From NCBI GenBank assembly GCA_024449915.1, contig JAMZAV010000067.1:372001-436000 (forward strand): DNA of 64,000 nucleotides, read 5' to 3'. Position numbers and translations under genes: made by a program. The notes under the pieces are model-generated. The model was not told where the DNA came from. It saw nothing but the letters and a program-made list of their open reading frames with translations, and searched no databases. Shown piece by piece: positions 2,127 to 49,259 of this stretch. Every line of letters begins with the position of its first letter. Position 1 is the stretch's first letter. Origin of the DNA: Sweltsa coloradensis (Eukaryota; Arthropoda; Insecta; Plecoptera; Chloroperlidae).

Positions 2127-3365
2127 CTATTCTCCCTGGAGTAAGACAATGACGTAAGTAGTCACAGCCCCCGCCATTCCGAGCAGGAGACCGAAGTCAA
2201 TTTCACAAAACCCGTATGCGGTGAAACTCAAATGAGTATTCAAAACCTGATAGCAGAACATACTTAATTCGTTAGAGAGTTTGCTACTCATTTTGCTTCT
2301 GTCAATTAATATATCTTGAATCAAAATGGCGGCCTTTGGATATTCTTCTCTCGTCCTTTGACAAGCATGTGCTAGGTAGAATGCGAAGAAGCAATAATCT
2401 ATTGCCCAGAAGAACGTACTTGCTATAGATATTAAAAACTTTTTAGAAAAGTTGTGCGATCCTTTGGTTATCAACATCAGAATAGCATAAAATCCCACAA
2501 CAATATTGGATAATGTACTAATCAGGGTAAGTACCAATGGCAATCCATATACATTGTTTACAGTTGCAGCTATTTTGTATATGCCGAAATGGCACTTTTG
2601 AAGGTTACGGATTGTAACTTGATCGTTTAACGAATCGACATTTTTGGGGGATTTTCTACTGTAACGTTCAGAAATGATACTGAATTTTTGACCGCCATTA
2701 TTCAATTGATCTATTGGAGAAATTTTATTGAAGGATTTTAAACGCGTTTTAATTTTAATAATTTCTTCATTGACTAGCGCTAGTCGTTCCCTTAGCAACA
2801 GTAATAAAACTGAAAACTGCAGATTGCCATAGTAAATGCAATATCGAGTGGTTGTAGATAATACATAATTTGCTGATCTCAGAAAACCAAATAATATTGC
2901 CGGGACAATCGCTTCAGAGGCGATTTGAATAAAAAGGACGAGCGAAATCAGTAGTGACCAGATGAAGATGGTTCGTGTTACTTGTTTATGGAACTGTATT
3001 GGATGTCGAATCAAATTAGTGTCAATTTTGACCAGAGAGTTGAATACCTCTACCAGTCTATGACGATGCCACACAAGGTTGATCACGTAAAAGTCATACG
3101 TTATGAAGAGAAGCATGTCGTTGAAGGAATATGATATGTCCATCAATGGAAACTGGTCATTGCGGGAAACTGGTACCTTAGCATAGTACATCAAACTAAC
3201 CACTAAACATGACAACACCAAGCATAATAAAACAGAGTAGGTGGTCACAAGAGGTGATGTGTGGAACTTCTGTGCTGACTTCTTGGGGTTGTAGCTGAAG
3301 GGAGCCAATCCCAGGGCTCGGAGAATGACGTAGAGGGGACGGAGAGGCGAGAAGAAGTCGGACAT
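2127..3365 (-). CDS. gustatory receptor (7tm_7 family), intronless
   Basis: A 412-residue membrane protein if it starts at the methionine beginning MSDFFSPLRPLY; an upstream in-frame Met at 3398 would add 11 residues. I prefer the internal Met because MSD followed by PLxxILRALGLAPF is the usual N-terminus of insect gustatory receptors. Hydrophobic segments are visible near residues 41-61, 82-98, 135-160, 172-195, 278-300, 315-335 and at the C-terminus. The last residues are TYVIVLLQGE, matching the family signature TYhhhhhQF, but with Gly instead of Phe after the Gln. Known family: ligand-gated cation channels of taste neurons, with the N-terminus inside the cell. The whole reading frame is one exon, which is uncommon for this family and may reflect intron loss or retroposition. 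No frameshift is seen, so it is likely functional. The ligand cannot be inferred. Confidence 0.85.
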   Translation of the reverse strand: MSDFFSPLRPLYVILRALGLAPFSYNPKKSAQKFHTSPLVTTYSVLLCLVLSCLVVSLMYYAKVPVSRNDQFPLMDISYSFNDMLLFITYDFYVINLVWHRHRLVEVFNSLVKIDTNLIRHPIQFHKQVTRTIFIWSLLISLVLFIQIASEAIVPAILFGFLRSANYVLSTTTRYCIYYGNLQFSVLLLLLRERLALVNEEIIKIKTRLKSFNKISPIDQLNNGGQKFSIISERYSRKSPKNVDSLNDQVTIRNLQKCHFGIYKIAATVNNVYGLPLVLTLISTLSNIVVGFYAILMLITKGSHNFSKKFLISIASTFFWAIDYCFFAFYLAHACQRTREEYPKAAILIQDILIDRSKMSSKLSNELSMFCYQVLNTHLSFTAYGFCEIDFGLLLGMAGAVTTYVIVLLQGE

Positions 3366-3551
3366 TGTGGGGGTCAAGATCTGTAAGAGGAGCAACATTT
3401 TGTTCTGCAGGATTTCTGCCCTCTAGAATCTAGACACGACGAGCTAGATTAAATGTTTGCTCTCTTAAAAAAGAAATTCCTTGAAAACTCTTTCTAATCA
3501 CAAATATTAGCGGAATGATTTGATATAATTTTGGAAGATTTCGACCCGTTT

Positions 3552-36287: not shown

Positions 36288-37396
36288 TTTAACAAAATGG
36301 CTAAAACTAACTTTTTCTCTCTAACTAAACACGATACTAAATTAAATGTAGGCCTAATATCAAATATTTAAAGCCTGTTACGTAAACAAATTCAGCAAAA
36401 ACAGCCCTTTAGGCACCCCTAGATATAACACTCACCACTTGCCAAATGTCCACAAATAGAATAATTCTCAAAATATATCACCCTTCCCTTATACCAATAA
36501 AAAAAATACTTTTTGTAAGAACCTGAAATAGGGCGCTACTTTGCCCTCTTCATGTGACTGCTAGGTATAGTTGTTCCAAAGCAAGTATGCATATGCTGAC
36601 GTCACCGGCGGGAGGATTGCAGCCAATCAGCGGTTCCCGATTTAAAATACGGATCGTTCATTGACCCGCCGAAACCGCGCGCATCTGCTTTCTTGCTTCG
36701 GAGCAACTATTAATGGAATTAGGACAATTGTGAAAGAATATCCGAGGGCTGTTAAAGAGGACTCAATCCCTTGCATTCGCATAAACGACAGAGGAAAACC
36801 TCGGAATAAACCTTCAGACAGGATTGACGGTCAAAACTGGATTTGAATCTGGTGCCTCCAGAATTAGAGTTGCGCGCTAGGCGCTCGAGACAACATTGTC
36901 GGATTTTAGTCTATAGTTTATTAGGTAATTAATACATTTAAAAGTAATATGGCATTGAGTGTATCAAGATACAGAAAAAATGACCTGCATTGGCCATATG
37001 ATTACTAAACTTACAGTTAAAGCTTAAAATAACAAATTTATTTAATTATTAAAATTTAGTCAGTATACATTACATGTAAATTGTGGCAGTCAAAAGAATA
37101 TAGGTCGACTGCTCTCAATAACAGAGTTTGACCTAGAGCAGTTTCCCAGGTTTATTGAACTGCTATATATAATGTCACTAGCCTAAGTGGTATAAATATA
37201 AATTATTTTAATAGTAATAAACACACATGTTTTATAAGCTGTTTTACGTTTAGATAACGATGGGGAAGAACATTCAAAGTTATTGGAGTGATATTAATTT
37301 GTTGATAATGAATTGATTCAAGAATACATTAATGTTTAAAATAAACAATATTGATAAGAATGATCAATAACTACCAAGGTCGAGATACGTACTAGA
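36288..37396. other. intergenic DNA with CRE/CCAAT patch and tRNA-like fragment
   Basis: 36596-36603 is a perfect TGACGTCA, followed by CCAAT at 36622-36626 in GC-rich DNA. At about 36835-36895 the minus strand carries a B-box-like AGATTCAAATCC with an A-box-like TCGAGCGCCTAGCG, probably a SINE head. No gene supported. Confidence 0.4.
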
Positions 37397-38373
37397 TAGC
37401 ATTAAGTAGCCTGAGCAATATCCAATTCACGATAGAAGTTGAGGAGAACGGCCAGCTACCATTCCTAGATATGTGCCTGATAAGAAGAGCTGATGGAAAC
37501 CTGGACCACACGGTTTACCGTAAACCTACGCACACAAACAGATACCTTAATACTGCATCTCATCATCATCCAGCCCAACTCAACTCGGTGGTGAACACAC
37601 TGACCACACGCTCTATACGACTATCAGATTCTGATCACTTAGCGTCGGAGAAGAAAACTCTGCGGGAGACCCTATGTGCTAATGGCTACTCACATTACAA
37701 CATAACTAAAGCATTCAAACGTCAACCTAAAGTCAGTGACAGAGGAGAAATAGAACAAGAAAAACACCGTGCAACAGCTTATCTGCCTTATATCAAAGGT
37801 ACAACAGATAAAGTCAGTAGACTGCTCAGGGCTCACAACATCAAGACCACTTTCAAAGCACATCGCAAAATCAACACCATGCTAAGAAGTGAAAAGCAGT
37901 CAATCCCTCTGGAGTCGCAAGGAGTCTACGAGGTCCCCTGTGGTTCGTGCCCCCAAGTCTATGTGGGCCTAACAAATAGGAGAATATCGGCTAGAGTGAA
38001 GGAACACGAACTCGCAGTAAGACAGGACAAAGCAACATCCGCATTAGCTCAGCATGTAAGGAAGGAAGGCCATTGGATAGACTTTGCCAACACTAGAACT
38101 CTAGCAGTAGCCCCTGTATATTACCCTCGTATCATACGCGAAGCCATCGAGATAGAAAAACGTCCCTGCAACATTAACAAGCGAGATGATGCCCAGAGAC
38201 TGGCAACAGCATGGAAACCAATCTTGGTCCAATACCAAGTGGTAAACAAACACATACCACCTTTAGACACAACAAAAGCTACTACACAAGAGCCTTCCTC
38301 GAGCAACACAGTACAAATCTCTGCATTCCCAATACAACCTCGCCGCCCCGCACCTATTTCCACCACAATATGA
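37397..38373 (+). pseudogene. Penelope-like element 1: RT tail plus GIY-YIG endonuclease
   Basis: Open from just after a TAG near 37395, through IQFTIEVEENGQLPFLD and YRKPTHTNRYLN (end of the RT region), to a GIY-YIG domain: GVYEVPCGSC, YVGLTNRRISARVKEH, LAQHVRKEGH and EAIEIEKRP. C-x2-C and the later H-x5-H form the CCHH zinc site typical of Penelope-like endonucleases. The RT catalytic core is missing, so it is 5'-truncated and non-autonomous, but the remaining ~325 codons are intact. It lies tail to tail with element 2. Confidence 0.85.
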
Positions 38374-38470
38374 GGCATGCAAAATCGATCGAGGACGCGC
38401 GCAGTTGGGTTGGAGACTTGTCAGTCGAGTGCGTGTTCTTGAAGAAGGAAGACGTACTAGTGAGTGACTC

Positions 38471-38504
38471 GTGATCATGCCAGATGCGATTCTGGCGAAA
38501 CGTC
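38471..38504 (+). ncRNA. hammerhead-like motif A, downstream of Penelope element 1
   Basis: Core GTGATCA, then T, a 6-bp stem GCCAGA/TCTGGC, then GAAACGTC; flanks ACTC and GAGT pair. It matches the hammerhead order core, stem II, GAAA, cleavage GTC. Relative to the consensus CTGANGA it has C3 to G and G8 to C together, which keeps the C3-G8 pair. A separate hairpin CTACAGAC-AAAG-GTCTGTAG follows at 38515-38534. Confidence 0.5.
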
Positions 38505-38623
38505 GAGTGCCAGGCTACAGACAAAGGTCTGTAGCAGCAAACTCATACAAGCGGCGGAATGTCCCAGAAGACAATTACAACATATATATATATTTTAATT
38601 TCAGATTTTCGCGGACATATATA

Positions 38624-38910
38624 AACATATTGTTTTTTACTGGGGCTTTTTCCCGCTAATAATTTATTAAAGAAGAGGGCACTGACTTACCCCTCCTCTC
38701 CTGACGTTTCGGGAAAGTCGCGTCTCCCATCCTAAGAGGCCTTCACTCCACTCGCGAGTGAGGAGCTCCAGGCAACACATCGTGGAGTGAAGGCCTCTGA
38801 GGATGGGAGATGCGACTTTCCCGAAACGTCAGGAGAGGAGGGGTAAGTCAGTGCCCTCTTCTTTAATAAATTATTCGCGGCAAAAAGCCCCAGTAAAAAA
38901 ACAATATGTT
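38624..38910. repeat. 129-bp inverted repeat carrying two hammerhead-like motifs (inverted pLTRs)
   Basis: Arms at about 38624-38752 and 38781-38910 are inverse copies (AGAAGAGGGCACTGACTTAC; TTTCCCGAAACGTC), with a 28-bp spacer. Inverted terminal repeats are usual in Penelope-like elements. Motif C (plus, 38797-38830) has the consensus core CTGAGGA. Motif B (minus, 38703-38736) has CTTAGGA, so G5 is mutated and it should be inactive. Confidence 0.6.
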
Positions 38911-39051
38911 TAATTATATATATAAACGTTGGAACTAATAATAAAACCACACGGTCTACCCGAAAATACATATATATATGATAAAAATAAGGATCTTGGG
39001 TAAAACCGCGTCGAAAATAAGATGAACCAGGGCAGAACCTGGGCGTCCACC

Positions 39052-39085
39052 GACGTTTCGTCTGTACTACGTCAGACATTTTCAA
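39052..39085 (-). ncRNA. hammerhead-like motif D, downstream of Penelope element 2
   Basis: On the minus strand: core TTGAAAA, T, stem GTCTG/CAGAC, then GAAACGTC; flanks ACC and GGT pair. Compared with the consensus, C3 is U and G8 is A, again a compatible pair. Spacing is the same 34 nt as motifs A-C. Confidence 0.45.
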
Positions 39086-39268
39086 GGTTGACTGTGACTC
39101 TACGGAGGTTGGAGTCACAGTGGTTGGCAAGCACGCAGCGCCCGCCTTATATAGCCTCGGCTGTAGGTGCGGGGCGGCGAGGTTATGTAGAACATAGGTG
39201 CGGGGCGGCGATGTCATATCGAAAAAATATATACGGATGGTGGCAATTGAGAAACAAAATAGCACAGC

Positions 39269-39975
39269 TTACTGTAGTGAAACCTTTTTAGTCCGGCTTC
39301 TTGTCATAGGGCCTGATTGGTTGTCTTTTGAAATGTTGTTCGTGCTTAGAATTATGGAATCTGAAATTTGCACCACCTCTGAGGGATTTGGCTGAATAGG
39401 TCTACGGACTACATTTCGAGGCATGAGTGCAGGTTTCCAAGCAAGAGGGAGGCTCTGGCTATCATCTCTTTTGTTCATGTTATTCGGCCGTTTCTCAATT
39501 TCCACAGATTCACGGATAATACGTGGCTTGAGCTGTTGTACAGGACAAATAGTTTTTGTTTTGTCAAAATCTATCACATGCGAGTAAGTTTCAGCATGTT
39601 GAGCCAGGGCTGATTTCTTGTAACCTGCTTTCACAGCATTAGAGTGTTCATTTATCCTCACTGCTATGCGTCTGCCTGTTTGGCCTATGTACGTTTGATC
39701 GCAGTCGCCACAGGGAACCTCATAAACCCCTCTTTCTTCCAGATGAACAGAGTCCTTAGCACTTCTCAAAAAGGAGCTGATTTTTCTGTCAGTGGCGAAA
39801 ATGGTTTCGATGTTCTTACGATTGAGGATTCTACCTATGACGTCTGTGGGAACCCTTGACATATGGAAGAAAAGCTTTAGACCGTGGTTTGTCCTTGTCC
39901 TCAGTATCATCCTCAGATTTCTTCAGTTCACGTTTAAACGCTCTGGTTATGTCTCGGTCTCGGTTATTTAAAGAT
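39269..39975 (-). pseudogene. Penelope-like element 2: GIY-YIG endonuclease remnant
   Basis: The minus strand encodes GVYEVPCGDC, YIGQTGRRIAVRINEH, LAQHAETYSH and ESVEIEKRPNNMNKRDD, the same domain as element 1 but clearly diverged, so from another subfamily. Upstream coding (TRAFKRELKKSEDD, KAFLPYVKG) is in a different frame, so a frameshift sits near 39860. The 5' part, including RT, is missing. Confidence 0.8.
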
Positions 39976-40102
39976 GGTAACACATACAAATAACCACGAA
40001 AACCTCAGAAATTATATATATATATATGTGTGTTTAAACTTGGTTTTATAGCAGTCGACTATGACGCTGTTATGTTATTACTTTAGACAGAAATTAAAAA
40101 AG

Positions 40103-40174
40103 TGACTACAACGGGGTTTGAACCCGGGACCTTAGCTTACCGGGCTATGCTCTTACCAACTGAGCTTTGCGGCC
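40103..40174 (-). tRNA. tRNA-like sequence (copy 1), probable pseudogene
   Basis: 72 nt with GGCCGCA/TGTAGTC-type acceptor (weak pairing; this copy has GTTGTAGTC), D arm GCTC-AGTTGGTAA-GAGC, T arm GGGTTCAAACCCC and loop CCGGTAA, giving anticodon GGT (Thr) with C at position 33. The anticodon stem is only four pairs. Confidence 0.4.
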
Positions 40175-40394
40175 ACCAATTTAAAACTGTCTTATTTTTG
40201 GTTTGTTTTGTACATTGTTAATAACGTGTTTAAACCAAGTTTAAACATCATATTTCCCAACTCTAGGGTTAAAGAGATGGTTTGTATTTCTCCTAGTTAA
40301 TTTCATGTGCAGTCTAATAGGCAGTGCAATCTGCTCTACACACGTTATTAACAATATACCAAACAGACAAAAAATTAGACAGTTTTAAATTGGT

Positions 40395-40466
40395 GGCCGC
40401 ATAGCTCAGTTGGTAAGAGCATTGCCCGGTAAGCTAAGGTCCCGGGTTCAAACCCCGGTGTAGTCA
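40395..40466 (+). tRNA. tRNA-like sequence (copy 2), probable pseudogene
   Basis: Inverse partner of the copy at 40103. Acceptor GGCCGCA/TGTAGTC pairs at 6 of 7; T arm CCGGG/CCCGG. Anticodon-stem mismatch TTGC/GCTA. Likely a mobile tRNA-like module. Confidence 0.4.
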
Positions 40467-40496
40467 CTTTTTTAATTTCTGTCTAAAGTACTTACA

Positions 40497-49187: not shown

Positions 49188-49259
49188 GGCCGCATAGCTC
49201 AGTTGGTAAGAGCATAGCCCGGACAGCTAAGGTCCCGGGTTCAAATCCCGGTGTAGTCA
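49188..49259 (+). tRNA. tRNA-like sequence (copy 3), probable pseudogene
   Basis: Same module as at 40395, just outside the foldback right end. The anticodon loop is altered (CCGGACA). T arm GGGTTCAAATCCC is intact. Confidence 0.4.

Follow-up and report, generated by a model that had tools for sequence, protein, structure and literature searches.

Hammerhead-like motifs spanning the start codon of Penelope-like elements in Sweltsa coloradensis, with the core pair 3:8 kept in four Watson-Crick forms

The window, a 64,000-nucleotide stretch of Sweltsa coloradensis DNA (contig JAMZAV010000067.1), contains four 34-nt motifs that we regard, with a probability of roughly 85%, as minimal type I hammerhead ribozymes of Penelope-like retroelements (PLEs), located in the pseudo-LTR and holding the start codon of the element within their core. 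Sequence comparison across families shows compensatory change preserving both stems (I and II) and the core pair 3:8, and demonstrates a constraint on these parts at the RNA level, acting upstream of the start codon as well as over it. Knowledge of the 3:8 pair has come chiefly from crystal structures and engineered mutants, along with some natural U-A cases, and the core is usually called invariant. Thousands of matches in one genome, with all four pair types among 100 of them, provide comparative evidence for this pair of the catalytic core.

Motif A (38471-38504, + strand) has the core GTGATCA (G3-C8), a 6-bp stem II and the ending GAAACGTC, and motif C (38797-38830, + strand; ATG at 38803) has the consensus core CTGAGGA (C3-G8) and a 6-bp stem II that includes one G-U pair. 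On the minus strand, motif B (38703-38736; ATG at 38730) belongs to the family of C and reads CTTAGGA through a G5 to U change, and motif D (39052-39085; ATG at 39079) reads TTGAAAA (U3-A8). An earlier note had claimed four hammerhead-like motifs with a 6-nt stem II between 38471 and 39085; all four were confirmed at these positions, the stem II of D having 5 pairs rather than 6. Their common form is N-TGA-NN-A-T-stem II-GAAACGTC, with TTA for TGA in B and an extra U between A9 and G10.1. B and C are the two arms of an inverted repeat (38617-38919, 88.6% identity), so the four motifs represent three lineages; the earlier treatment of them as separate examples holds for A, D and the B/C family, but not for B against C. 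This repeat is interpreted as a pair of 3' ends from a single PLE family, placed head-to-head with their tails outwards. The hammerhead core comprises U4, G5, A6, A9, G12, A13, A14, the pair A15.1-U16.1 and H17, all of which were found in A, C and D. B departs from this list at G5, and is expected to be inactive through that change. Stem I flanks the motifs with 4 pairs in A, 3 each in B and C, and 3 + 3 around one mismatch in D. Cleavage of A is predicted after 38504. The stem III sequence consists of ACGU only, and a 4-bp helix would require two copies.

Four motifs spotted by eye could be chance look-alikes, and GAAACGTC alone is expected 1.34 times per window (sd 1.20). It occurs four times, one copy ending each motif, and at least four occurrences were obtained in 3 of 100 shuffles. 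A descriptor requiring the core NTGANNA, GAAANNUH and a minimum of 5 pairs in stem II and 3 in stem I matched A, C and D only, B being lost through G5 to U, and gave 2 matches in 150 block-shuffled windows vs 3 in the real one. These counts, together with the genome search described below, refute the chance reading. In the four-row alignment, 39 of 40 cells were paired, a share reached in 0/500 shuffles, and 7 of 10 pairs were changed on both sides, a count reached in 3/500. Unforced minimum-energy folding placed stems I and II of the hammerhead in the folds of A and D, though not in those of B and C. For the pair 3:8, the window-only null (that in A and in D both core changes fall on these two positions and pair) amounted to 0.001-0.003, conditional on two changes in each motif, and the evidence from the window alone is weak.

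The genome to which the window belongs (1,448,894,888 bases; 1.45 Gb) was searched with the pattern TGANNATG-N17-GAAACGTC and, as a control, with the same pattern reversed, which gave 4988 and 698 matches, respectively. Because the pattern prescribes U4, G5, A6 and the ATG, the matches cannot measure how frequent these are. Flanks were read for the first 100 of the 4988 matches in contig order (C1 to C27), and each distinct 113-nt context was counted once, leaving 84 contexts; the 4888 unlisted matches stand outside the 3:8 tally, save those recurring in the A-U and G-C listings. The 3:8 pair was Watson-Crick in 87 of these 100 matches. Among the 84 contexts, C-G was found in 42, U-A in 18, A-U in 6 and G-C in 5, so that 71 were Watson-Crick vs 32.7 expected, a number reached in 0/100000 permutations. 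The other 13 comprised U-G (4), A-A (3) and one each of G-U, C-A, C-U, G-G, A-G and U-U, five of them being U-G or G-U. The backwards control suggests that about 14% of the matches arose by chance, a proportion similar to that of the non-pairing contexts. The excess was also observed for contexts with a stem II of at least 5 pairs (57/62 Watson-Crick, 24.4 expected) and for one context per stem II sequence (20/24, 9.7 expected), each with 0/100000 permutations reaching it. The proposal that natural variants keep 3:8 by compensatory change was thereby supported, and the genome-wide covariation on which the earlier note had staked it was found, here by permutation on the first 100 of 4988 matches and not by R-scape. 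A3-U8 is a fourth combination, absent from that note; C-G, U-A, G-C and A-U are all natural here, the pair being kept while its identity varies.

An alignment of 36 rows was built with one row per family and 3:8 type, which deliberately over-represents non-pairs. In it 81.9% of the cells were paired vs 51.2% after shuffling (0/500 shuffles reached the real value), and sliding the rows by 1-3 columns lowered pairing to at most 44.4%. Stem I was paired in 68.5% of cells and stem II in 89.4%, and a standard pair stood at 3:8 in 28 of the 36 rows. Pairs changed on both sides numbered 9 in these rows, which is not above shuffles (365/500 reached 9). Covariation of stems I and II was found on the 4 rows and again on the 36 genome rows, in agreement with what had been claimed for stem II.

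Clustering of the contexts produced 30 families, of which 17 are single sites. Full genome counts were made for A-U and G-C only, giving 348 matches for G3-C8 (control 7) and 214 for A3-U8 (control 0). The hairpin was a variant of GTTACCCACAGAGGTAAC in 100/100 listed A-U rows (of 214) and of the motif A type in 99/100 listed G-C rows (of 348). The exceptional G-C row, G000:C249:325081-325114, has an A-U-type hairpin and is perhaps an independent switch. Since A-U and G-C each have about one hairpin kind among the listed rows, the 562 copies go back to few independent events. Such uniformity would suit hammerhead relics that were once active, in which G-C and A-U are founder haplotypes amplified with the element and the pair is not under selection, and insertion by an Anolis element in vitro did not need cleavage (PMC11167929). 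We nevertheless consider relics unlikely, since U-A occurs in 9 of the 30 clusters (one evidently split off from the family of D, and two with a weak stem II), the family with the hairpin of D has U-A (10) and C-G (3) together, and one match with an A-U hairpin has G-C (C249:325081). Moreover, when contexts are restricted to those having both stems (at least 4 pairs in stem II and at least 2 in stem I), 3:8 is Watson-Crick in 49 of 51, non-pairs thus making up 2/51 there vs 13/84 overall. Taken on its sequences, the U-A/C-G mix in the family of D is a compensatory double change within one family.

In each of the four window motifs, a PLE reading frame begins with an ATG made up of A9, the U that follows it and G10.1. 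The frame start on motif A covers 38477-38580 (+ strand; MPDAILAKRR...), and the peptides from the other ATGs begin MGDATFPKRQ (B and C) and MSDVVQTKRR (D). Because the ATG lies inside the motif, stem II and GAAACGTC are also coding, which raises the question of whether what is conserved is coding sequence together with the context of the start codon (an M-x6-K-R peptide and A at -3), with the hammerhead likeness a by-product. M......KR is encoded by each window motif, A6 lies at -3 relative to the ATG, and related peptides recur among the copies, the K-R frame being fixed by the search pattern. Yet positions 3 and 8 and the 5' strand of stem I are upstream of the ATG and still covary with their partners, the TGA-upstream-of-ATG pattern is seven times commoner than its reverse, and, when all codons are given equal weight, stem II and GAAACGT survive together in just 0.12-0.26% of synonymous codings. 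The coding explanation is already strained by these observations and appears very improbable. Among 65 public PLE proteins of at least 590 residues, many of which may be without their true N-terminus, M-x6-ETS was present near the N-terminus in 5 and absent in 60. Its Met is residue 1 in three of the five, an adjacent second Met in one and an inner Met in one, and ETS can be encoded as GAA-ACG-TCN, the same letters in another frame. One of the five, an Anolis carolinensis protein (P0177) that is presumably encoded by the Poseidon element PAc, would place the cut 26 nt past its start codon, provided that we infer its codons correctly, and a bee protein (P0160) shows the K-R form.

The elements that carry A and D are, by their encoded proteins, Penelope-like elements. 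The reading frame of copy A (37396-38373, + strand) is 5'-truncated and holds the end of the reverse transcriptase part together with a GIY-YIG-type endonuclease, and that of copy D (39269-39922, - strand) holds the endonuclease. The frame of A has 126 homologues, and the 120 listed include those of beetles, bees, an ant and lizards; PF26215 and PF00078 were detected in many and PF01541 in few of these best 120 of 126. A 20-row alignment showed invariant columns common to both window proteins, and a Pfam hmmscan of the two window frames (D as 39269-39910) gave no match. The joined reverse transcriptase and GIY-YIG endonuclease is visible in the homologues only, the window copies being 5'-truncated. 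An AT run starts 105 nt (A) and 100 nt (D) past the ATG, which fits PLE copies that have their 3' end some 110 nt into the ORF and lie at an AT-rich target. Around genome matches, a PLE protein was present in 24 and absent in 36 of 60 three-kb loci, some of which overlap; with the frames beside A and D, the proposed link to PLEs therefore holds. Neighbouring matches within 4 kb were in the order -,+ in 21 of 26 pairs at a spacing of 44-2922 bp (first 100 of 4988 matches), which is read as head-to-head PLE copies with tails outwards. PLE protein was confirmed neither in viral contigs nor in GTDB contigs. The pattern GTGANCA...GAAACGTC had at least 120 matches in viral contigs, which are presumed to be chance.

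A 19-nt element, CCTCGCCGCCCCGCACCTA, lies within the reading frame end 114 nt upstream of motif A (38338-38356, + strand), and two copies are located upstream of motif D on the - strand (39164-39182, exact, and 39195-39213, with one mismatch). The element is GC-rich, and an identical copy precedes both A and D, even though the proteins of the two show only 40% identity to each other. TATATAAG begins at 39153, 68 nt before motif D, and both elements are perhaps pLTR promoter parts. Elsewhere in the window, two tRNA matches, one on each strand, lie within an 82% inverted repeat at 40073-40496, with a related copy near 49188, and a chemosensory receptor (7tm_7) is found at 2127-3398 (- strand), its sole match being a cockroach protein of 23% identity.

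Rfam models identified no hammerhead in the whole window, and the Rfam check proposed earlier came out negative, no hammerhead family being among 7 matches up to E 10 in 38300-39300. A Murine norovirus 3'UTR match, below the cut-off, and miRNA matches fell on the palindrome and were taken as chance. The missing matches probably reflect a limit of the models for minimal hammerhead forms. RF00008 gave 0 matches in the genome, a test made uninformative by 14 controls that also gave 0. Searches with a fixed CUGANGA would be expected to miss these families.

If the motifs act as hammerheads, the RNA would be cut after C17, 25 nt past the start codon, with stem III formed by the ACGU of one copy paired with the ACGU of a second. 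Activity would then require two copies in one tandem transcript, two molecules, or the help of PLE protein. Head-to-head motifs lie on opposite strands and so cannot form a dimer within one transcript, which leaves tandem or trans pairing. Three tandem motifs with 52-nt spacing were observed at G000:C12:799501-799637 (- strand), their stem II looking weak, and such an array might form a dimer ribozyme. Cleavage would separate the start codon from the downstream frame, so that an RNA would be either mRNA or processed element RNA. Our further suggestion, which we hold tentatively and somewhat short of even odds, is that active natural hammerheads have G-C or A-U at 3:8 as the fixed state of multicopy families, and that cleavage is a built-in switch, mRNA off and processed RNA on. 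The 2'-OH of residue 8 has been proposed as the general acid (PMC6155905), so that the base would be free to vary if the pair is kept. If the suggestion is true, every one of the four Watson-Crick pairs has been tried in nature at this very site. The copies also make the role of PLE hammerheads that overlap the start codon testable.

Several components of this picture are already published: hammerheads in PLEs and their cleavage as dimers, U3-A8 in nature and, for one Anolis PLE, the overlap with the start codon. The interpretation offered in the earlier note is supported overall, its U3-A8 part having been reported before (PMC3088659). PLE hammerheads without helix III are thought to act as dimers (PMC7761336, PMC6466107); palindromic stem III loops and tandem copies are named in PMC6466107 with reference to Lunse et al. 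2017, whose title, as given in reference lists including that of PMC10085705, fits a stem III between two copies. The minimal PLE hammerheads of Cervera and de la Pena 2014 and Lunse et al. 2017 share the pseudo-LTR position and the absence of their own helix III with those described here, whereas the genome of the window has 3:8 in all four Watson-Crick forms, although those papers may list variants. C3 and G8 are known to pair, and natural or engineered swaps can be active (PMC3088659, PMC11167929). In the available parts of the literature searched, the 3:8 swaps encountered were U3-A8 in nature (PMC3088659) and an engineered one (PMC11167929); neither G3-C8 nor A3-U8 appeared there as a natural pair, and Cervera 2014, Lunse 2017 and Przybilski and Hammann 2007 may list such variants. 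Perreault et al. 2011 thus reported a compensated natural pair like that seen here, with U-A alone named in the accessible text, and G-C and A-U are added here, in PLEs.

Among insects, the hammerhead of the Dolichopoda cricket satellite pDo500 has compensatory changes in stems I and II, as here, but its C3 and G8 are highly conserved, with C3 changed in four and G8 in two of 198 sequences (PMC2837043), unlike in the present families. The Penelope families of Adineta vaga (PMC3846280) resemble the present elements in a pLTR that includes the first 12 ORF codons, a tail, head-to-head copies and a TATA box in the pLTR, and differ in that the word 'hammerhead' is absent from the available text of that paper. 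Another likeness is to PAc, whose frame starts at stem II and whose cut lies 26 bp past the start codon (PMC11167929). PAc shares with the window motifs the overlap of ATG and stem II and the position of C3 and G8 upstream of the start codon, and its 3' end lies 111-118 nt inside the ORF start, vs AT runs that begin at 105 (A) and 100 (D) nt here. The PAc ribozyme cut only with protein added and was dispensable for insertion in vitro (PMC11167929). Its single mutants C3G and G8C lost activity and the double mutant partly restored activity (PMC11167929); the C3G/G8C swap was engineered in PAc, whereas G3-C8 is natural in the genome of the window, with 348 matches.
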